Notes under the pieces: generated by a model | What the model was told of the DNA's origin: nothing | The model's input: the letters and a program-made list of their open reading frames with translations, nothing else | The model's database searches: none | Translations under genes and position numbers: made by a program | Shown: positions 8,147-19,743 of the stretch, piece after piece | Numbering within the stretch: position 1 is the stretch's first letter | Layout: each line of letters opens with the position of its first letter | From: Terriglobia bacterium | Lineage (GTDB): Bacteria > Acidobacteriota > Terriglobia > 20CM-2-55-15 | DNA length: 47,947 nt | NCBI GenBank assembly: GCA_036496425.1 | Contig: DASXLG010000353.1 | Coordinates: forward strand, 1 to 47,947 | Direction of reading: 5' to 3'

Positions 8147-8968
8147 TCAGGATTCTTTCTGCGCTTCCCACACAAAAGGAGAGGCTAAAGCCCGGAAAAA
8201 CGCGAAGCGTTCGAGAATCCAGGAATCCATTTCATGCGATTTCTTCATTGCCGGAACATGCCGGATACCCAGGCGTTCGAGCACCCGGCTGGTCAGCATG
8301 AATTTTCTGAAGCGGCCGGGTCTTCCGACGGCACGGCTGACCGAACAGATCTGCCTGGTCGTCAGCGGACCTTCGTGCTCGATGACGTGATCCGGTCTGG
8401 GGAACAACCTTCTGATCCTGGCCAGCCAAGCCGGTCCGGCAATCTGTTCAATAAATGACGCGCGTCCGCCGGGCTTTAATATCCGGCGAATCTGCCGCGC
8501 CGCGGCGAGACAATCGACGTGGCGCAATACGCCCGCGCACAGCACACCATCGATGGTGCCATCTGCGACAGGAATTGCAGCCGCGTCTCCATGGACAAGC
8601 AGAACTCGTCCCTCGACTTTATTGGCGTGAACGCGGTCACGGGTTGTCTCGAGGCTTTTGTCGGATACGTCGATCGCGATAACCTTCGCTCCCAGCGCTG
8701 CCAGAATGACAGTATTGAATCCATCGCCGCAGCCACAATCGACGATTGTTTTGCCCTGAACATCGCCCAGAAGATGGAACGCGTACTCGAGCGGAAAGGG
8801 AGTTAGAGAAGAAGGTTCATCGTAACGAAGGATATTCCGGCGAGACATCACCAGATCCGGCGGAAAGCTGCGAATCGCTACCTTATTAAAATGGATCCGC
8901 TCGCGATCGAGCCGCTCCTGGAATGCAGGTTCACTTCCGAGGTCGAGCACATCATCACTCCGGCCCAC
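8147..8968 (-). CDS. class I SAM-dependent methyltransferase
   Basis: A 273-residue Rossmann-fold methyltransferase. Motif I is VDCGCGDGFNT (about residue 76), then AIDVSDKSL (acidic ribose ligand), HGDAAAIPVADG, and RILKPGGRASF (motif III region). The C-terminal third is variable and probably recognises the acceptor. GTG at 8968 is preceded by AGGAGAGG at good spacing. It is the last gene of the minus-strand operon with the carrier protein, adenylation enzyme and flavin monooxygenase, so it probably modifies the acyl or aminoacyl product made there, or its final acceptor. Whether it methylates O, N or C cannot be told. Confidence 0.85.
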   Translation of the reverse strand: MGRSDDVLDLGSEPAFQERLDRERIHFNKVAIRSFPPDLVMSRRNILRYDEPSSLTPFPLEYAFHLLGDVQGKTIVDCGCGDGFNTVILAALGAKVIAIDVSDKSLETTRDRVHANKVEGRVLLVHGDAAAIPVADGTIDGVLCAGVLRHVDCLAAARQIRRILKPGGRASFIEQIAGPAWLARIRRLFPRPDHVIEHEGPLTTRQICSVSRAVGRPGRFRKFMLTSRVLERLGIRHVPAMKKSHEMDSWILERFAFFRALASPFVWEAQKES

Positions 8969-9015: not shown

Positions 9016-9303
9016 TCAAACTGCCGAGTGCAAGCCAAGGGGAACCTTATCGATGGAATCGTCTGATAACTGAATGTAGTCACTGATCGCAGCAATACTG
9101 CGAAAATCGGCCAGGTCCACCTGATCCAGTGCGATCTGGATCGTAAACTCTTCTTCCAGAGCGACCAGCATATCCACAAATGACAGGGAGTCGAGTATCC
9201 CGCTTTGAAACAAATCCTCACCGGCAGCCGGCGCGTCGATCTGCAGCCGGTCATGGAAGATTGTTCTAATTCGTTGTTGAACGCTACCGCGACTGGTTTC
9301 CAT
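9016..9303 (-). CDS. acyl/peptidyl carrier protein
   Basis: A 95-residue four-helix carrier protein. The phosphopantetheine attachment serine lies in GILDSLSFVDML (Ser near residue 39), followed by the acidic recognition helix LVALEEEF and a third-helix segment DFRSIAAISDYI. It resembles DltC-like and stand-alone carriers more than fatty-acid AcpP. The carrier presents a thioester-bound substrate to partner enzymes; its loading enzyme is very likely the adenylation protein directly upstream, separated by two bases. ATG 9303 has an AAGGT ribosome site. No phosphopantetheinyl transferase is present in the window. Confidence 0.88.
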   Translation of the reverse strand: METSRGSVQQRIRTIFHDRLQIDAPAAGEDLFQSGILDSLSFVDMLVALEEEFTIQIALDQVDLADFRSIAAISDYIQLSDDSIDKVPLGLHSAV

Positions 9304-9305
9304 TT

Positions 9306-10904
9306 CTACCTTCTTTCGCCTGCCTGACGCGTGCCGTGCTGAGCCACGGCGTCAGGCGCCTTCATAAACCATTCCTTCAAAAGAGACCGGTCGATTTTCC
9401 CATTCATGTTCTTCGGCAATTGTTCTGAGACCAGCCAGCGCGATGGCAGCATGTGACTGGGCAGCCGCTTCCGCAAAGCCTGTTTGACGGCGGCCGGCGT
9501 CACAGGTGCTGCCGAAAATGGCGCATAAACGCAACAGATCTGAGTATTGTCGAAGCCGTCGCTCTTGAGAGCAACGACGGCTGCTTCCTTCACATCTTCG
9601 AGTTCGTTCAATGCCGCCTCAATTTCACCCAGTTCAATGCGATAACCGCGGTTCTTGATCTGCGAATCCGTCCGCCCGACGAAATAAACCAGGCCGTTGG
9701 CGTCCTTCCTCGCAAGATCCCCCGTGTTATAGATCCGGCTCGATGGATCGCCGCTGAAGGGATTCGGCAAAAACGCTGCTGCTGTTTTCTGCGGATCTTG
9801 CCAGTAACCGGGACTGAGTCCTTTGCCGGCGATATAAAGCGTACCGGTATCGCCCGGCGCGACCGGGTGAAGTTGTTCGTTCAACACGAAGAGTTCTTCG
9901 TTGCCGCACGGCCGGCCGATGGGAATCATCGCATCTGCTTCGGGTAGACCGGGCACCGTGAAATAGCTGCTCGCGATTGTGGCTTCCGTGGGGCCATAAA
10001 GATTCGTGAAAGTCACGTGGGGCAATCGTTGCATCCAATAACGAAGCACCGGCGCCGGGAGAACTTCCCCGCACCATAGCAGCCGTTTTAAAGAAGGAAA
10101 ATCGTTCGGCCGGATCACATCGAACTTTGCCAGATACGTCAAAAGCGAGGGTACCGAAAACCACTGCGTGAGTTCGGCACCGCGAATAAAATCCGCCGTA
10201 TCCTTCGCAGAAACATTCAGTTCAGGGGGAACAAGATGAAGCTGAGCTCCAGCCGCAAACGCTCCGAAGATATCAAAGACCGACAGGTCGAAGTGAAGCG
10301 GCGGGTGTCCGGAAAGCCTGTCATGGGTATCAAGCCCGAAATACGGTTTCGCCCATTCAATGAAACAGATGACGTTGGCGTGCGTTATAACGACACCCTT
10401 CGGCGGACCGGTCGAGCCTGACGTGTACAGGATATAAGCCGGATCCCTGCTCACGTTCCCGGACTCCAGCGGATCGGATGAAAACGGCGCCACGCTGGAT
10501 TGCACGTCCAGCCGTAATACGGGGGTGCTGCGAATCGCGTCCGATGCGCCGGAAAGCTCCGTCCACAAGGGCAGCCCGGCATCGTCAACCAGCAGGAGCC
10601 GGGGGTCGGCCGACTGAAGAATCTTCAGCGCCCGGGGGGATGGGCTGTTCGTATCGACCGGAACGTAAGCGCAGTCTGCTTTCAGGATGCCCAGGATGCC
10701 TGCGATGGTGCGGGGTGTCTTTGGAAGAAGCATCGCCACCCTGTCGCCACGCCGGCAACCGGCAGCGCGGATCGCCCGCGCCAACTGGTTGCTGAGCTTT
10801 TCGATCTCCTCATAACTCAACCGCACTGGACCTAGAGCGACAGCCAGGCTTCCCGGAAGGTTTTGAGCCGCGCGGCCGGAGTACTCTTGCAGGAGTTGCG
10901 TCAT
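9306..10904 (-). CDS. stand-alone amino-acid adenylation enzyme (DltA/NRPS A-domain-like)
   Basis: A 532-residue ANL-superfamily ligase that activates a carboxylate as acyl-AMP and loads it on a carrier thiol. Core motifs in order: LSYEEIEKLSNQLA, YVPVDTNSPS, YILYTSGSTGPPKGV (P-loop), FDLSVFDIF (with the Asp that contacts an amino-acid amine in NRPS A-domains), NLYGPTEAT, YNTGDLARKD, KNRGYRIELGEIE and the catalytic Lys in NMNGKIDR. Presence of that Asp suggests an amino acid substrate, but the identity is not predicted here. Its ATG overlaps the stop of the monooxygenase gene (ATGA), and the carrier protein follows after two bases. Exosortase-linked acyl ligases are a similar alternative class. 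Confidence 0.88.
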   Translation of the reverse strand: MTQLLQEYSGRAAQNLPGSLAVALGPVRLSYEEIEKLSNQLARAIRAAGCRRGDRVAMLLPKTPRTIAGILGILKADCAYVPVDTNSPSPRALKILQSADPRLLLVDDAGLPLWTELSGASDAIRSTPVLRLDVQSSVAPFSSDPLESGNVSRDPAYILYTSGSTGPPKGVVITHANVICFIEWAKPYFGLDTHDRLSGHPPLHFDLSVFDIFGAFAAGAQLHLVPPELNVSAKDTADFIRGAELTQWFSVPSLLTYLAKFDVIRPNDFPSLKRLLWCGEVLPAPVLRYWMQRLPHVTFTNLYGPTEATIASSYFTVPGLPEADAMIPIGRPCGNEELFVLNEQLHPVAPGDTGTLYIAGKGLSPGYWQDPQKTAAAFLPNPFSGDPSSRIYNTGDLARKDANGLVYFVGRTDSQIKNRGYRIELGEIEAALNELEDVKEAAVVALKSDGFDNTQICCVYAPFSAAPVTPAAVKQALRKRLPSHMLPSRWLVSEQLPKNMNGKIDRSLLKEWFMKAPDAVAQHGTRQAGERR

Positions 10905-11905
10905 GATGCGACCCGCTCTCTGGCAAGTTCGAATACCCTGCCGATGCTCTCGAGCTCCTCGGCGTTTGGCGGAATATCCAGGATAAACGTTCCGTATCCC
11001 AGTTCCAGATAGCGCGAGACCTCTTCGGCTACGCGATCGTAGGCGCCCACCAGATAAGGACAGAAGGTTTTGTAGTTTTGAAACGGACCCAGCCAGTAGG
11101 GAGTTTCCGGAGATTCGGCAAGCTTCGACAGTTGTTCATGCCATTTCGAATCCGAAGACTTTATTGCAAGCTCGTGGGTGATCTGTCCTTTCCGCGTTTC
11201 CGGGAACCGCTCCATCGCAACCCGCCAGGCTTCGGCTTCGCTTGCCCGCGCGATGATCCCGATCCGGATACCCGTTTCCGAGCCGCCGGCCGGCGCTTCA
11301 GCTTCTTCCGAAGTAGGCTTCGGATATTTCACTGCCGTGGCACCGATCGCTTTGGCAGCGGACAGTCCGGCCTCCGACGAACCTGAAACCAGAAATCGAG
11401 GTTCTAAATCCGGAGACGGCGGTGGTCCCAACTTGGCGTTGCTGATCGTGTAAAACTCGCCTTCAAAGCTGACCGGTGTGCCGGATGCGCAGAGTTTTTT
11501 GATGATCTGAGCGTACTCGATCAGACGATCATAGCGTCTGTCATGGGGCGTGGTGTCATTGAGGCTGCTCAAGTCGTTCACGAAACCGCCGGCTACCATA
11601 TTGAGATAAATGCGGCGGCGATACAGAAAACCCAGCGAACTGACCATTTTCGCCACGCTATAGGGGTGCAGGTAAATGGGCTGGACGGCAACGAGGGGAG
11701 AAAGCCTCTCCGTATTCTCGATGATGATCTGTGAAACCAACCAGGGATCGGCGATCCGGTTGTCCGTATAGACCAGGATGCCTTCGCACCCATGCGCTTC
11801 GCTCCAGCGGGCAACGTCGATCACTTTTTTCAGATAGGCAGAGTGGCTGTGATCACTGGATTGGGGACATGTCGAAAATATTCTAAGTTCACTATTCGGA
11901 CTCAT
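10901..11905 (-). CDS. LLM-class flavin-dependent monooxygenase (SsuD/luciferase-like)
   Basis: A 334-residue TIM-barrel oxidoreductase of the bacterial luciferase family. Evidence is the N-terminal barrel pattern (SHSAYLKKVIDVARWSEAHG, GILVYTDNRIADPW), the conserved HPYSVAKMVSSLGFLYRRR segment, YLNMVAGGFVNDL, the ERLSPLVAVQP strand, and RFLVSGSSEAGLSAAKAIGA (phosphate site), close to alkanesulfonate and NRPS-associated monooxygenases. It uses reduced FMN (or F420 in some members) to oxidise its substrate. As first gene of an operon with an adenylation enzyme and carrier protein it probably acts on a carrier-bound or released amino acid derivative, for instance by hydroxylation. ATG 11905 follows CGGAG. 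A 290-base divergent spacer without recognisable genes separates it from the carbamoyltransferases. Confidence 0.86.
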   Translation of the reverse strand: MSPNSELRIFSTCPQSSDHSHSAYLKKVIDVARWSEAHGCEGILVYTDNRIADPWLVSQIIIENTERLSPLVAVQPIYLHPYSVAKMVSSLGFLYRRRIYLNMVAGGFVNDLSSLNDTTPHDRRYDRLIEYAQIIKKLCASGTPVSFEGEFYTISNAKLGPPPSPDLEPRFLVSGSSEAGLSAAKAIGATAVKYPKPTSEEAEAPAGGSETGIRIGIIARASEAEAWRVAMERFPETRKGQITHELAIKSSDSKWHEQLSKLAESPETPYWLGPFQNYKTFCPYLVGAYDRVAEEVSRYLELGYGTFILDIPPNAEELESIGRVFELARERVAS

Positions 11906-12195: not shown

Positions 12196-13959
12196 TTGAA
12201 CATCCTCGGAATCAGCGGCCTGCCACATTCAGCCAACTACAAGATGAGTCATGGAAGTCCCGAGCCCGGCGAACTTCGCATTCGTCAGGGCCTCGATGCG
12301 GCAGCGACCCTGGTCGTCGACGGGCAGATCGTCGCGGCAGCTGCGGAAGAGCGCTTTACAGGCGAAAAGCAGACCGGTTCCTTCCCGTCCGGCGCAATAA
12401 ATTATTGTCTGTTCGAGGGCGGCCTGCACATCGGCCAGATCGATGAAATCGCGCATGGTTTCGAGTTCTCGCCTTATGAACAAATCTCGCGGCTCGATCC
12501 GGTTTCGGCGGAACGTTACGATGCCGTTTACTCGCGGGCCGCGCTTCTCAACGATGTCCAACATCATTTACCCGGATTTCCGGCGCATAAAGTCCATCAT
12601 GTGCCTCACCACCTCGCTCACGCAGCCAGCGCTTATTTCACTTCGGGATGGGACGAATGCCTGGTGGCCGTCGTCGACGGCATGGGAGAAGTGGACAGTG
12701 CGACGATCTATCACGCGCGCGGCGGGAAGCTGAAGAAGCTGCAGTCGATCGCCGCACTACACTCCATTGGAATACTCTATTCCCTGATCACGCTGCATCT
12801 CGGATTCGATTTCAACGGAGACGAGTACAAGATCATGGGGCTCGCTCCATACGGCTGCCCGCAGAAGTTCAGACCCTTCTTCGAAAAAACGGTGGAGTTT
12901 CTGCCGAACGGAGCGATCCGCATTCCGCTCCTTTCAATCAACAGGACCGGTGAAGAACGAGACAACTATCGCGCCTCCCGCCGCTTCCTCGACAAAGAGC
13001 TGGGGCCAAGGCGAAGAGGAGACGAGGACGTCACCGCGCATCATCGCGATATAGCGGCGGCCTTGCAGGAATGCCTGGAAAGAACCATGCAACACATCTG
13101 CGGTTATTTCCAGAAGAAGACCTCGTTGCGGCGCCTGGCGCTTGCCGGCGGCGTCGCCCTCAATTGCACGTCGAATGGAAGCCTTGTGCGGTCGGGCTTA
13201 TTCGACGAAATCTATGTGCAGCCGGCAGCGGGCGACGACGGGACGGCCCTTGGAGCGGCATTACACCGCGCGGCAGTGCATGGTGAGATCCGGAATCACA
13301 GGCTTCCCGTTCCTTTCTTCGGCCCGGCATCATCGAGCACCGAGATTGCGAGCGCTCTTGCTGAGTACCAGGACAGCATCAACGTCACGCAATTCCCCGA
13401 TCTGGCTGCTGTTTCGTCCGAAGCTGCCCGCTGGATTGCCGGCGGCAAGGTCATCGCATGGCACCGGGGACGGATGGAATTCGGTCCGCGCGCTCTCGGA
13501 AACCGCAGCATCCTGGCGGATCCTTCACATCCGGAAATGCGCGATCGCATCAATGCGATGGTAAAAAAGCGCGAGGCATTTCGTCCGTTTGCTCCTGCCG
13601 TTTCTCTCGAACAGGCACACGTCTGGTTCGAAATGCCGGCCGGAACACACCAGCCTTACATGATCACGACGGTCAATGTGCGAGAGGCGCACCGTCAAAC
13701 GCTGCCGGCAATTACGCACGTCAACGGAAGCGCTCGCGTGCAAACGGTTTCTGAAGGCGATAACCCGGACTTCCACATCCTGCTGAAAGAGGTCGGGAAA
13801 ATCACCGGCCGCGAAATGCTCCTCAACACAAGCTTTAATGTCAAAGGGCAGCCGATGGTCAACACTGCCCGCGAAGCAATCGCCACATTTCTCGGCACGG
13901 GAATCCAGGCATTATTTCTGGAAAACCATCTGGTGACGAAACGGAACAATCCCGACTGA
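12196..13959 (+). CDS. O-carbamoyltransferase, NodU/TobZ family (catalytically intact)
   Basis: A 587-residue enzyme that uses carbamoyl phosphate and ATP to form carbamoyl-adenylate and then carbamoylates a hydroxyl group, often on a sugar. The Kae1-like N-terminal part has HHLAHAASAY with the metal ligands His138 and His142, VVDGMGE with Asp161 (the same 19-residue spacing as His118-Asp137 in TobZ), GGVALNC and GDDGTALGAA (Asp347). The C-terminal YrdC-like part has FGPRALGNRSILADP and LLNTSFNVKGQPMV. TTG at 12196 is chosen because GGAGAAGGA lies just upstream and the protein then begins NILGISG as in the family; ATG 12142 adds 18 atypical residues. The second carbamoyltransferase follows after 11 bases. 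Confidence 0.9.
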   Translation: MNILGISGLPHSANYKMSHGSPEPGELRIRQGLDAAATLVVDGQIVAAAAEERFTGEKQTGSFPSGAINYCLFEGGLHIGQIDEIAHGFEFSPYEQISRLDPVSAERYDAVYSRAALLNDVQHHLPGFPAHKVHHVPHHLAHAASAYFTSGWDECLVAVVDGMGEVDSATIYHARGGKLKKLQSIAALHSIGILYSLITLHLGFDFNGDEYKIMGLAPYGCPQKFRPFFEKTVEFLPNGAIRIPLLSINRTGEERDNYRASRRFLDKELGPRRRGDEDVTAHHRDIAAALQECLERTMQHICGYFQKKTSLRRLALAGGVALNCTSNGSLVRSGLFDEIYVQPAAGDDGTALGAALHRAAVHGEIRNHRLPVPFFGPASSSTEIASALAEYQDSINVTQFPDLAAVSSEAARWIAGGKVIAWHRGRMEFGPRALGNRSILADPSHPEMRDRINAMVKKREAFRPFAPAVSLEQAHVWFEMPAGTHQPYMITTVNVREAHRQTLPAITHVNGSARVQTVSEGDNPDFHILLKEVGKITGREMLLNTSFNVKGQPMVNTAREAIATFLGTGIQALFLENHLVTKRNNPD

Positions 13960-13970
13960 ATGGATTCGCA

Positions 13971-15500
13971 ATGACAATCCTCGGAATCAACACGGAGTCT
14001 GACGGCTTTGGCGCCGCAGTCCTTCGCGACGGACGCGTGTTGGCCGCAATCGAGCAATTCAAAATCCGCCAGCACTGGTCTTCGATGGACAAAGCGCCTG
14101 TGCCGAAGGACGCCATCCTGACGGCACTCCAGGCGGCCGGAACCGATTGTTCCGAAGTCGGCGCCATCGCCCTGACCGGCGATGTGAACTCTGCCGAGAA
14201 AATCATTCCGCACATCCGGAAGCTCGGCCTGAATCCCCGCGCAATGATCGAGCCCGTTGATCTTCAGACCGCGCATGTCACAGCCGCGTTCGCGGGTTCG
14301 CCCTTTGACCGCGCCGCAATACTCATCCTGAACTGCGGCCGCGAGCCCGGCAGCCTCTGTCTTGCTGCGGGCGATGGAGCCCGGATCGAGATAGAGAAAA
14401 TTCCGCGGCGTTATTCGTTGCTTGGACCCGTGTACAGCAGTGTTTCCAGTGCATTGGGCTTTCAGCCATGGACTTGCAGCAAGATGGCATGGCTGGGCGC
14501 GACCGGTCAGCCCGAATTCCTGGATGTCTTCCATCACATGATGCCATCAGACCACGCCTATGCGCCTGTGGAAGAACTGGTAAGGGCGGTCGACCTCAAT
14601 CGGCCGCAAGACGCCGCTGCCAGCCTGCAGGCCTGGACCAATGAGATCGTGACGGATCTGGCCGAAGGCCTCTGCCGCCGGCATTCCCTTTCGAACATTT
14701 GTGTTGCCGGACATCTTGCAGAAAACCCATTCCTGATCCGAGAGCTGGAAAAGCATTTCGGTGCGGAGCGCGTGTTTGTTCCACCGGCTCCGGGAAGAGA
14801 AAGTCTCAGCATTGGCGCCGCATGGGTCCGTTCGCGCCGCGAAAGACGTTTTGCACAGAACTTGTGTTTTCCATACCCGGCGCTGGGACCGGAGTTTGCA
14901 GATCCTCAGATCAAAGAGGAAATGGATAACTGCAAACTGGTCTGCAATTTCTTTCCCGGCGTGGATGCGCTCGCCGAAACCGTCTGCCGGACACTGAATT
15001 CCGGCGGGTTGGCCGGCTGGTTTCAAGGCCGCTGTGAATTTGGCCACCGCGCTCTTGGATTCCGCAGCATTCTGGCAAATCCCTTCACACCCTTCATCGA
15101 TGAGAACATCAATCGCTTCCTGAAGCATCGCGAGACGTCTCATCCTTTTGTCATCTCTGTTCCAGAGGAGTCTGCATCGGAATACTTCGACCAACCCGGC
15201 GCCAATGCACGGACAATCGCATCGATGTATCCGGTCCGGATGGATAAAAGCAGCCTGCTTTCAAGGTTTGTGATCCAGGATGAGTGTGTTCGCGTTCACA
15301 CCGTGAGTTCAGCAGACAATCACCCGCTCTGGATGCTGTTGCACAGGATGAAGGGGTTCACCGGTCATCCGCTGCTCATCAATACTTCTTTCAATCTTCC
15401 AAGCGAACCTCTCGTTATGACGCCGCGTGACGCGATACGCAGCTTTTATGCGTCGGGCCTGGACGTACTGGCCATCGGCCGCTTTCTGCTGACGAAGTAG
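13971..15500 (+). CDS. degenerate carbamoyltransferase homologue (NodU/TobZ family)
   Basis: A 509-residue paralogue of the preceding enzyme, about 80 residues shorter. The N-terminal pattern (TILGINTESDGFGAAVLRDG) and the C-terminal motifs FGHRALGFRSILANP and LLINTSFNLPSEPLV are kept. The metal site is not: the first His of HxxxH is Leu98 (only His102 remains), the Asp 19 residues on is Asn121 inside ILNCGRE, and the GDDG motif reads GRES (Arg276-Glu277). GGVALNC is replaced by AGHLAENPF. It should not hydrolyse carbamoyl phosphate itself, though the adenylate or transfer half may work with the intact neighbour. ATG 13971 is 11 bases after that gene's stop, implying co-translation and perhaps a complex. 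Confidence 0.85.
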   Translation: MTILGINTESDGFGAAVLRDGRVLAAIEQFKIRQHWSSMDKAPVPKDAILTALQAAGTDCSEVGAIALTGDVNSAEKIIPHIRKLGLNPRAMIEPVDLQTAHVTAAFAGSPFDRAAILILNCGREPGSLCLAAGDGARIEIEKIPRRYSLLGPVYSSVSSALGFQPWTCSKMAWLGATGQPEFLDVFHHMMPSDHAYAPVEELVRAVDLNRPQDAAASLQAWTNEIVTDLAEGLCRRHSLSNICVAGHLAENPFLIRELEKHFGAERVFVPPAPGRESLSIGAAWVRSRRERRFAQNLCFPYPALGPEFADPQIKEEMDNCKLVCNFFPGVDALAETVCRTLNSGGLAGWFQGRCEFGHRALGFRSILANPFTPFIDENINRFLKHRETSHPFVISVPEESASEYFDQPGANARTIASMYPVRMDKSSLLSRFVIQDECVRVHTVSSADNHPLWMLLHRMKGFTGHPLLINTSFNLPSEPLVMTPRDAIRSFYASGLDVLAIGRFLLTK

Positions 15501-15786: not shown

Positions 15787-18700
15787 ATGAAACTATCTTT
15801 TGCGCATCACAGGAAGTCAGTTCTGGCAGTCATCGTAAGCATCATGCTTGGTGGATTGTGTGCGTCCGTAAACGCGCAAACGGCGCCATCCACGTATTCG
15901 GCATATACGGGAACCGATATTAAGACACCACCGCCGGCACCGGCATTGGGACCGGCGAATTCCGTAATTGCAGACCCGACTTTCGGTTCTCAAATCCTGC
16001 GGGTTACAGACCCGAATACAAACAGCGGCGAATCTTTTATTCCGACCGATGCGGGATCTCACCGGACATGGAATGCCAACTCGACGGCTATAAAACTGAC
16101 AGGCCCTCATGGCGACGGATATTGGCTTGAATTCGATCCGAATAACTTCAAAGTCGGCGACGGCTCGGCTAACCCGAAGATTCACTCGGTCCCTTATGGA
16201 GCGACATGGGAATGGTCTACGGTCGATCCGGACGTCATGTACGTTTTACACGGCAGTCAGATCGCGAAATACAATAAAGCCACCGGCGTTACAACCGACA
16301 TCGCCGGACCATCGACCGGTGAACCGCTTGACTATTTCGCGGTGGTGATCGGACAGGATAACTGGATTTGCGCGGCGGCGGGTTCGGGAAATCAGGATTC
16401 GTACACGAAGATCTTCTGCGTCAATCCAGTGAGCCCTTCGACAAGCAAGTTCATTGACGTCTATAACAAGACCATCAACGGCGTAGCGCAAAGCGATCCG
16501 AATTGGCCGAAGTCGGCCGCCGGACAGGTTCTCGGTATTCACGGCATTTCGGGTGGCACCGGCGCAAACTGGCTGCCGGTGACCTTCCACCAGCAGAGTT
16601 GGGGCGGAAACGGCGACGCCATTTTTGATCTCGCAACAAACACATGGTCGCTGGTCTCCAATGCCGATTATTACTGGTCCGGGCACATTTCAATGGGCAA
16701 CGGGACGTATGCCAACTCCGCCGGCTCGCAGAACGGCATCGATTCACGCGGCATACTCCTGCGAAACCCCGACAACTTGATGAATGCCTCTCAGTATCAC
16801 TTTATCGGGCAGCCGACGGCGCCCTGGAATGGCTGGTGTGATGCCGATCACAATTCGTGGTTGAACTCTGTTACGAATCCCAACGCACCGATTGTTTCAT
16901 CCCGCTACGGCGGTAATACGGGCTGCGCTTACGCCTGGACCAGTGAAATTATCGGCATGGCCGTGGACGGCTCGAACACGGTGTACCGCTTCGCGCACAA
17001 CCACAACCTCGCAAGCGTCTGCTATTACGGTCAGGCCTTCGCGCAGATTTCCAACGACGGGAAATGGATATTGTTCTCCACTCCCTGGGACGGCAAACTG
17101 GGATCCGACACGGCCTTCGGCTGTGGAACCCGAATCGACACCTTCATACTGTCGCTTGTTCCCGGTTCTTCCAGTTCCGGTGGCACCACTGTCGGCACCG
17201 GTACAGGCTCGACGGGTTCGGGCGGCTCGACCGGGACCAGTTCCGGCGGTTCCACAGGCACGGGTACCGGTACCTCGACGGGTTCCACCGGTACGGGTAC
17301 CTCGACAGGAACTTCGACTTCATCGGGCGGGTCAACCGGGTCAACCGGTTCGACTTCGACTGGTTCAGGTTCTTCGACGTCGACAACGGCCTCCACAACA
17401 CGCGTCGAGCAGAACGGTGCAGGCATCGTCTACTCCGGAACCTGGTATCCCAATACCGGAGCTTTCAACAGCGGCAGCAGCGCCGTATTGGCTGAAGACG
17501 CGAGCGCACGCGCAACATTCACTTTCAACGGTACGGGCGTGAACTGGATTGGATACCGGGATCAGTGGTCCGGCATCGCGCAGGTCTATGTCGATGGCAA
17601 GCTGGCGGCGACGATCGACACGTACTCCGCAACTGAACAGGCGCAGCAGGTGATCTACTCCGCCTCCGGCCTGGCTTCAGGAACCCATACGTTCGCTATC
17701 CAGGTCACTGGGACCAAAGGCGCCTCCTCCTCCGCGCCGTGGGTCTGGCTGGATGCTTTCGACGTCACTTCAGGCAGCAGCACGACTTCTGGAACGGGCA
17801 CAACCGGCAGCACTGGTACCGGCACGACGTCGACAGGCACCTCGACAGGCACAGGCACGTCGACGGGTACGTCGACAGGCACGGGCACTTCGACAGGTTC
17901 AACGGGCTCGGGAACGTCAACCTCGACGGGTTCCTCAACGTCTACAACCTCGGGTACGACGGGAACGACAACCACAACGGCCCCGGCAGCATCTCAGTAT
18001 CGCGTCGAGCAATCGAGCGCGGCAGTAAAGTGGACGGGTTCGTGGAGCTTGAACAACGGCAGCTTCAACAGTGGCGGAAGCGCCAAGCTTTCAATGACCG
18101 CCGGAGCGCGAGCGACCTTCACGTTCACTGGTACTTCGGTCAGCTGGATTGCTTATCGTGATCAATGGGCCGGAATCGCCAGGGTCTATATGGATGGATC
18201 CGTGGTCGCCACCGTGGATACATACGCCTCACCGGCGCAAGCCAAAACGGTTATGTACACGGTATCCGGTCTGACTTCCGGCACGCACACGATCGCGATC
18301 GAGGCGGCAGGCACGAAGAACGCCAATTCGGCCGCATCCTGGATCTGGGTCGATGCCTTCGACTACACCGGCGCCGCCTTGACGAGTTCGGCATCAACTG
18401 CGGATTCCGGCAGCGCGACGGTTTCGCTGGCCGGCGGGATGACCATGACCAGCAGCGGCACTACGCCGCTGACGGTCGGGTCGGCTGAGGTTGACGGGAC
18501 CGGGGGGGCAACCCCCGCTGGTCTCGCACTCATCAGCGATACGGAAAACGGTGTCATCGCATCGGAGGCTGGCGTCCCAGCCTCTGCTCCTCTTTTAAGG
18601 GGCCGGATCGATTCAGAGATCTCTTCGTCAGTGAATACCGGCTTCGCCCTCGCCAATCCGAGCGACTCGGCGGCGACAATTTCTTTTTTTTTCACGGATG

Positions 18701-19743
18701 CCAATGGAACAGACTCCGGCTCGGGTAGCCTGACGTTGCCGGCGCACGGGCAACTGGCTCAGTTTCTGAATCAAGCGCCATTCAACGGCGCCTCCACGAG
18801 TTCAACCTTTACGTTTTCGTCGACTGTTCCCGTGTCGGCTATCGCTCTTCGCGAACTGACGAATGAGCGCTCCGAATTCCTGATGACCACTCTCCCGATC
18901 GCAAACCCGGACCTGCCGTCGCCGGCCACCGCTTACTTCCCGCATGTACCGGACGGCGCCGGCTGGACAACGCAGTTCGTTCTCGTCAACCCGACCGACA
19001 GCGCGATCACGGGAACCCTCCTATTTGTCAATCAAGCGGGTCAGGCTGGTCAATCCCTGCCGTATCAGATTGCGGCACGTTCGGCCTGGCGCTACTCCAC
19101 TCCGGATACGGCCTCATCCGTTACAGTCGGATCGGCCGAGGCGATTCCGGATGAATCGAACGTCGCGCCCGTCGGCGTCGCCATCTTTTCGCTTCAACAG
19201 AACGGCATCACCATCTCGACAGCGGGTGTTCCGTCTCTTGAAAGCAGTCCTGCATTCCGGCTATATGCCGAAGCCTCGGCGGATGGAAGCATTCGCACCG
19301 GCATGGGCATCGTGAATGTGACCGAGATACCGACAACCGTTCAATTCGACCTCGTAAACCTGGACGGAACACCGACCGGGTTGACGGGAACGCTCAGTCT
19401 GCCCGCGTTCGGCCAGCAGGCTCTCTTCCTGGACCAGGTGCCGGGCTTCGCATCCTTGCAGAAACCTTTCCAGGGGATTGTTCGTCTCTCCAGCGTGGAC
19501 GGCGTGGATCTCGCAGTGATCGGGCTGCGCGGACGCTTGAACCAGCGCTCCGAGTTCATCATGACCACGACGGCGCCCACAAACGAAAATGCGGCGCCCG
19601 CGCCCCAACTGATGTTTCCGCAGATGGCCAATGGAGGCGGATTCCTGACGCAGTTCGTTCTGTATAGCGGCACGGCCGGTGAACCTGCAACGGGTACTCT
19701 GAACGTCCATGACCAGTCCGGTGGCACAATGAATCCATTCTAA
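15787..19743 (+). CDS. large secreted modular protein with two jelly-roll-like modules and a duplicated C-terminal domain
   Basis: 1318 residues. A signal peptide (hydrophobic VLAVIVSIMLGGLCASVNA, cleavage about residue 31) is followed by a roughly 420-residue domain rich in aromatic and Gly residues with beta-propeller-like character, which I do not recognise. Then come a Gly/Ser/Thr linker, a module at about 536-662, a second linker, a second module at about 736-860 (pattern RVEQ, GTWY, FNSG, RATFTF, W.GYRDQW.GIA.VY.DG, GTHT, VWVDAFD), and two copies of a roughly 210-residue domain (about 897-1108 and 1114-1318; shared pattern ERSEFLMTT, TQFVL). The second copy stops short of the first one's end. 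The modules resemble carbohydrate-binding jelly rolls. The start has a plausible ribosome site (AGAAAGAAGA). A strong hairpin follows. Confidence 0.82.
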   Translation: MKLSFAHHRKSVLAVIVSIMLGGLCASVNAQTAPSTYSAYTGTDIKTPPPAPALGPANSVIADPTFGSQILRVTDPNTNSGESFIPTDAGSHRTWNANSTAIKLTGPHGDGYWLEFDPNNFKVGDGSANPKIHSVPYGATWEWSTVDPDVMYVLHGSQIAKYNKATGVTTDIAGPSTGEPLDYFAVVIGQDNWICAAAGSGNQDSYTKIFCVNPVSPSTSKFIDVYNKTINGVAQSDPNWPKSAAGQVLGIHGISGGTGANWLPVTFHQQSWGGNGDAIFDLATNTWSLVSNADYYWSGHISMGNGTYANSAGSQNGIDSRGILLRNPDNLMNASQYHFIGQPTAPWNGWCDADHNSWLNSVTNPNAPIVSSRYGGNTGCAYAWTSEIIGMAVDGSNTVYRFAHNHNLASVCYYGQAFAQISNDGKWILFSTPWDGKLGSDTAFGCGTRIDTFILSLVPGSSSSGGTTVGTGTGSTGSGGSTGTSSGGSTGTGTGTSTGSTGTGTSTGTSTSSGGSTGSTGSTSTGSGSSTSTTASTTRVEQNGAGIVYSGTWYPNTGAFNSGSSAVLAEDASARATFTFNGTGVNWIGYRDQWSGIAQVYVDGKLAATIDTYSATEQAQQVIYSASGLASGTHTFAIQVTGTKGASSSAPWVWLDAFDVTSGSSTTSGTGTTGSTGTGTTSTGTSTGTGTSTGTSTGTGTSTGSTGSGTSTSTGSSTSTTSGTTGTTTTTAPAASQYRVEQSSAAVKWTGSWSLNNGSFNSGGSAKLSMTAGARATFTFTGTSVSWIAYRDQWAGIARVYMDGSVVATVDTYASPAQAKTVMYTVSGLTSGTHTIAIEAAGTKNANSAASWIWVDAFDYTGAALTSSASTADSGSATVSLAGGMTMTSSGTTPLTVGSAEVDGTGGATPAGLALISDTENGVIASEAGVPASAPLLRGRIDSEISSSVNTGFALANPSDSAATISFFFTDANGTDSGSGSLTLPAHGQLAQFLNQAPFNGASTSSTFTFSSTVPVSAIALRELTNERSEFLMTTLPIANPDLPSPATAYFPHVPDGAGWTTQFVLVNPTDSAITGTLLFVNQAGQAGQSLPYQIAARSAWRYSTPDTASSVTVGSAEAIPDESNVAPVGVAIFSLQQNGITISTAGVPSLESSPAFRLYAEASADGSIRTGMGIVNVTEIPTTVQFDLVNLDGTPTGLTGTLSLPAFGQQALFLDQVPGFASLQKPFQGIVRLSSVDGVDLAVIGLRGRLNQRSEFIMTTTAPTNENAAPAPQLMFPQMANGGGFLTQFVLYSGTAGEPATGTLNVHDQSGGTMNPF
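17161..17394 (+). repeat. Gly/Ser/Thr-coding linker repeat 1
   Basis: Short degenerate direct repeats of the type ACCGGTACCTCGACGGGT encode a low-complexity Gly-Ser-Thr tether between the N-terminal domain and the first module of the secreted protein. Such tracts vary in length by slippage and are often O-glycosylated in other families (inference). Confidence 0.7.
17776..17994 (+). repeat. Gly/Ser/Thr-coding linker repeat 2
   Basis: A second low-complexity tract of repeated ACGTCGACAGGCAC-like units encodes alternating Thr-Gly-Thr-Ser residues between modules 1 and 2. The antisense frames are open and Val/Pro-rich only because of the repeat. Confidence 0.7.

Follow-up and report, generated by a model that had tools for sequence, protein, structure and literature searches.

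A carbamoyltransferase gene in a Terriglobia bacterium, here called CT1, is followed on the same strand by a second gene, CT2, whose product combines a dead Kae1-like metal site with a preserved YrdC-like motif. The reading that we favour, at a probability of about one half, is that CT2 is a maintained class III variant whose transfer site is dead and whose carbamoyl-adenylate site is retained, and that it was recruited to the CT1 pathway; both the activity and the partnership are what we infer. Characterised class III carbamoyltransferases hold the adenylating and the transferring sites in one chain, and a maintained member with the adenylating site alone would, if this reading is true, mean that carbamoyl-adenylate can be made or used in trans. 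It would also provide a second case, beside TsaD-TsaB, of active and inactive Kae1-like proteins that cooperate, and nature would here offer an experiment on which parts of the Kae1-like metal site are required for the chemistry.

Two adjacent carbamoyltransferase genes

The window is the whole stretch of DNA that was analysed, 47,947 nucleotides of contig DASXLG010000353.1, and the two genes and their diagnostic residues are located within it as follows.

12196..13959, plus strand: CT1, class III (TobZ/NovN/GdmN-type) carbamoyltransferase, 587 amino acids from TTG
12292-12294, plus strand: Leu33 of CT1, replacing the HD-motif histidine
12607, 12619, 12676 and 13234, plus strand: CT1 metal-ligand codons His138, His142, Asp161 and Asp347
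13960..13970, plus strand: CT1-CT2 spacer, 11 nt, operon-like spacing
13971..15500, plus strand: CT2, carbamoyltransferase-like protein, 509 amino acids, dead Kae1-like metal site
14262, 14274, 14331 and 14796, plus strand: CT2 positions facing the metal ligands, Leu98, His102, Asn121 and Arg276
15123, 15129, 15387 and 15393, plus strand: preserved YrdC-like motif of CT2, Lys385, Arg387, Ser473 and Asn475

The open frame of CT1 spans 12142/12196-13959, and the TTG at 12196 was taken as the start, in agreement with the orthologue L187, which has Met at the equivalent place. Numbered from this codon, the four ligands that the initial annotation had assigned, including Asp347 of GDDG, are all confirmed by the sequence and sit in the motifs HHLAH, VVDG and GDDG. 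Both Pfam domains of CT1, PF02543 and PF16861, score above cut-off (175 and 223 bits), and its best solved structures are NovN (6.6e-121) and GdmN (about 1e-111). For CT2, the Carbam_trans_C match reaches 145 bits, that to Carbam_trans_N is confined to residues 210-284 (45 bits), and the best solved structure is TobZ (3.7e-38). In a phmmer alignment, Leu98 and His102 of CT2 face the histidines of TobZ HHLAH, Asn121 the Asp of IVDG and Arg276 the Asp of SDIG, which bears out the earlier placement of Leu98, Asn121 and Arg276. The accompanying claim of multiple ligand loss holds for three of the four positions, but His102, which had gone unmentioned, is kept and is the sole ligand to remain. Intact ligands shifted elsewhere in CT2 are ruled out, as the alignment with TobZ has no gap inside the four motifs, the nearest lying just before Val96. 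The C-terminal RALGxRSILA and NTSFN motifs reported for the second gene are indeed there, the former as RALGFRSILA.

Both proteins share domain order and predicted fold with TobZ, NovN, GdmN and VtdB, and in both the YrdC-like half retains KxR...SxN. All four metal ligands of these enzymes are found in CT1, whereas CT2 is without three of them, and the HD-motif histidine is absent from CT1 and CT2 alike. Thus the description of CT1 as intact stands for its metal ligands but not for the HD motif. In GdmN, the corresponding residue, H27, is the general base, and H27N abolishes activity (PMC9633730); because Leu33 takes its place in CT1, the acceptor chemistry of CT1 may, judging from sequence, be altered. 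Among 18 CT1 orthologues the position is His in 12, Met in 4 and unreadable in 2. The four orthologues with Met (L181, L182, L183 and L189) are all followed by another AMP-binding gene.

CT1 also differs from NovN and GdmN in its C-terminus. The dimerisation domain of GdmN is given as D574-L674 (PMC9633730), and CT1 stops at GdmN position 574, so that this domain, some 100 residues long, is absent. The orthologues extend at most 23 residues past the end of CT1 and are therefore without this domain too.

CT2 belongs to a different branch of the family

To place CT2, 123 carbamoyltransferases were aligned, a sample picked by similarity to CT1 or CT2 and by shared loci and thus not a census. Written as the residues at the four ligand positions, the patterns were HHDN (63 proteins), HHDD (53), HHNN (2) and HQ-N (2, L072 and L073), with single members for HHDI (L207), PLNQ (L214) and LHNR (CT2 itself). 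The ligand loss of CT2 is not a trivial departure, because just five other rows among the 123 have a changed histidine or first Asp. In an IQ-TREE analysis of 45 rows, 16 HHDD rows including CT1 were split from the rest with SH-aLRT values of 97-100, and CT2 fell in the other, Asn-bearing group (the Asn branch) on a long branch of 1.38 substitutions per site; FastTree runs likewise placed it there. CT2 thus sits in a widespread branch, separate from that of CT1, where Asn already stands at the fourth ligand position. Identity between CT1 and CT2 is 22% in the Kae1 half and 33% in the YrdC half, as compared with means of 30% and 42% between CT2 and the Asn branch, and these values together rule out an origin of CT2 by tandem duplication of CT1. 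Since CT2 groups with the HHDN branch it is no broken-down version of CT1, and the trees contradict the notion that the pair arose by divergence from CT1.

CT2 has no close relative in the genomes searched. Its best full-length match has 39% identity, and it occurs in one of 11 genomes of its family, this one, with G007 and G010 carrying an HQ-N protein of 32-33% identity. A contig scan with CT2 found six distant relatives and nothing closer, a search of 396 genomes of the phylum with alignment A1 found matches at E 1e-80 or better in four of them, this genome included, and a tblastn search of plasmids returned 297 records, with a best identity of 31.6% among the matches listed.

These distributions bear on the main rival to our reading, which is that CT2 works independently as an Asn-branch enzyme, transferring carbamoyl or another acyl group to its own acceptor with no classical metal site, and that it just shares the operon of CT1. 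The fourth Asp is missing throughout the Asn branch (63 of the 123), whose neighbouring genes are different, and the two HHNN members lack the first Asp as well. For the gutted relatives L214 and L072/L073, no second carbamoyltransferase was found in the fetched DNA, and clusters with two separate carbamoyltransferases do exist (see below). However, CT2 has also lost the equivalents of A143, A144, G164, G319 and G349, which surround the nucleotide site, together with the HD motif, so little of a transfer site is left, and we consider an independent metal-free enzyme somewhat improbable.

Evidence that CT2 is probably maintained

The losses in CT2 are unevenly distributed. With near-invariant columns defined on 50 HHDN proteins, CT2 keeps 53 of 59 columns in the YrdC half (90%) versus 21 of 35 in the Kae1 half (p=0.0013 by Fisher's test, which takes columns as independent). 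In a leave-one-out comparison, the poorest of the 50 HHDN proteins still had 85% and 89% of the respective columns. The Kae1 losses include H138, A143, A144, D161, G164, D165, G319, N347 and G349 (CT1 numbering) and lie around the site, nucleotide-loop glycines among them; the HD motif is gone, histidine included. The KxR...SxN motif, by comparison, is found in 122 of the 123 sampled proteins including CT2, the sole exception being a truncated protein. An AlphaFold model of CT2 shows both domains complete (pLDDT 80.3, pTM 0.81) and matches TobZ with a Z score of 37.0 (496 residues aligned, rmsd 2.9), NovN with 35.9, GdmN with 35.2 and VtdB with 33.3, a fold result that is partly built in by an 8-row input alignment with CT1 and relatives.

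Selection was gauged on similar proteins elsewhere, with dN/dS calculated by the Nei-Gojobori method from one pair in each case. L219 is the counterpart of L214 in a congener, 75% identical and, by eye, without the same site residues; dN/dS for this pair is 0.22 in the Kae1 half (273 codons) and 0.08 in the YrdC half (211 codons), at a dS near 1. For L072/L073 the overall value is 0.38, from few changes (dS 0.08). Comparable metal-less proteins elsewhere are thus under purifying selection. The HHNN proteins L200 (8346-10097) and L201 (7914-9644), in which both Asp residues are replaced by Asn, come from two genomes of another family of the phylum, and their dN/dS is 0.18 and 0.09 in the two halves.

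It is against these data that a decay of CT2 into a pseudogene must be weighed. Consistent with decay are the presence of CT2 in one of the 11 family genomes searched, its long branch (about 1.4 substitutions per site) and the many core residues lost. Set against this, its 509 codons are open, its codon-position composition is normal, with GC resembling that of neighbouring genes, 90% of the near-invariant YrdC columns are kept, and purifying selection acts on similarly gutted proteins. Simple decay is therefore disfavoured, and we rate it as quite improbable. Because the losses are local and metal-less relatives are under purifying selection, CT2 resembles a specialised protein rather than a wreck, and it is a real and probably maintained variant of a known family. 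To this extent the suggestion in the initial annotation of a specialised protein with the rest of its fold preserved is upheld, in that losses are local to the Kae1-like site and the YrdC site is kept.

A more general version of this scheme is that ligands were lost stepwise in one branch, from HHDN to HHNN and then to LHNR, PLNQ and HQ-N, while the carbamoyl-adenylate site was never lost. This would make the group a maintained set of transfer-less proteins that form carbamoyl-adenylate, with CT2 supplying or regulating a complete enzyme in trans. We put this scheme forward tentatively and hold it to be rather doubtful. A single origin of all gutted proteins is likewise tentative: IQ-TREE gives one change, with a support of 65 and very long branches, and FastTree places L072/L073 inconsistently, outside the Asn branch in one run.

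Gene neighbourhood of CT1 and its orthologues

Upstream of CT1, the opposite strand carries the following genes.

10901..11905, minus strand: luciferase-like (LLM) monooxygenase, divergent, upstream of CT1
9306..10904, minus strand: stand-alone amino-acid adenylation domain, divergent; a related AMP-binding protein lies near CT1 orthologues
9016..9303, minus strand: stand-alone carrier protein (PP-binding)
8147..8968, minus strand: SAM methyltransferase, possibly of the same cluster

CT1 is part of a small cluster with the adenylation domain, the carrier protein and the LLM monooxygenase. Among 399 genomes of the class, CT1 orthologues were found in 18 besides this one, with 59-65% identity, the next match falling to 43%. 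An AMP-binding protein is near CT1 in 17 of the 18 loci and an LLM monooxygenase in 9. A large ORF is common to 7 of the loci, and the single member scanned is a polyketide synthase. The CT1 cluster is thus conserved across orthologue loci. Downstream of CT2, 15787-19743 encodes a protein of 1318 amino acids that contains long Ser/Thr/Gly linkers and matches CE2_N.

The same loci speak to the pairing. No second carbamoyltransferase was found in the fetched DNA of any of the 18, which covers at least 2.6 kb downstream of CT1 in each and, because the contig ends at the start of CT1, the downstream side alone in L185 and L190; the genome survey hence goes against an evolved intact-plus-degenerate pair as first proposed. 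An ancient, conserved CT1-CT2 pair is ruled out; within the genomes searched the pairing is a one-genome arrangement, and CT1 is not generally dependent on CT2. This weighs against the idea that CT2 is an obligate heteromer partner that completes the acceptor pocket of CT1, much as loop 4' of the second subunit does in the GdmN homodimer. The tight 11-nt spacing is in its favour, as is the fact that CT1, although NovN and GdmN are its best solved matches, stops at the point where the dimerisation domain of those enzymes starts (PMC9633730), and TsaD-TsaB is a working precedent for a pair of active and inactive Kae1-like proteins (PMC9654439). However, all 18 orthologues, which also lack the dimerisation domain, do without CT2, which makes an obligate partner specific to CT1 less likely. 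We regard it as unlikely, with a CT1-CT2 heteromer possible in this one organism.

At L190, from the same genus, the genes next to the CT1 orthologue on its downstream side (3-1605) are carA and an incomplete carB of which the start is present, not CT2. These genes encode the makers of carbamoyl phosphate, and the arrangement suggests either a carbamoyl-phosphate supply within the cluster or chance.

Loci with two carbamoyltransferases do occur elsewhere. Thirteen fetched loci combine an HHDD enzyme with one from the Asn branch, which is HHDN in 12 of them and HHDI in one. Both lie on the same strand, the HHDD enzyme being first at 12 loci; eight of the 13 (L202-L209) had been fetched because two matches on one contig were already listed. 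At L143 the two open frames nearly abut, 49 nt apart. The HHDD enzymes of the 13 loci all score below the CT1 orthologue group. Homologous loci with two intact enzymes had been named beforehand as a sign that the second copy is decaying; such loci exist only as these 13, all of them non-orthologous to CT1-CT2. The pairing of HHDD and Asn-branch enzymes thus recurs, with a second enzyme better preserved than CT2. A different arrangement is seen at L210 (4764-8572, genome G056), where two HHDD carbamoyltransferase frames lie in tandem, 29 nt apart.

A proposed role for CT2

In published accounts, the YrdC-like domain of the family makes carbamoyl-adenylate, and the iron-bearing Kae1-like domain holds this intermediate and transfers the carbamoyl group (PMC9633730; PMC9654439). 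Because activation resides in the one half and transfer in the other, CT2 should manage the first step and not the second. We propose that CT2 would bind ATP and carbamoyl phosphate and form or hold carbamoyl-adenylate, and that its own Kae1-like site would be unable to transfer the carbamoyl group. Recruited next to CT1 in this lineage, it would aid the same pathway, either as a donor of carbamoyl-adenylate or through contact with CT1 or with the CT1 acceptor.

Such support may be likened to that given to TsaD by its inactive paralogue TsaB. TsaD-TsaB is described as an active Kae1-like protein with a paralogue that lacks the metal and nucleotide site, and TsaB as accompanying TsaD in all bacterial genomes (PMC9654439). 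No such conservation across genomes was found for CT1 and CT2, with CT2 at none of the 18 orthologue loci. TsaB is not known to carry a YrdC domain, whereas CT2 keeps its YrdC-like domain and is known from one genome. Two class III enzymes, Asc21a and Asc21b, have been attributed to one biosynthetic cluster, asc, and are placed in one subclade with active ansamycin enzymes (PMC9633730); in contrast, CT1 and CT2 come from different branches, and the CT2 site is dead. A literature search, with subscription papers outside its scope, listed no title that concerns a metal-less carbamoyltransferase of class III, an absence that counts as weak evidence.

Genes adjoining the HHDN carbamoyltransferases

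A glutamyl-tRNA synthetase gene lies upstream on the same strand at 31 of the 63 HHDN loci (L057, L058, L124-L126, L136, L212 and others), close by in 13 and at about 1.6 kb in most others. At L212, a glutaminyl-type synthetase is found between the glutamyl-tRNA synthetase gene and the Asn-branch carbamoyltransferase.
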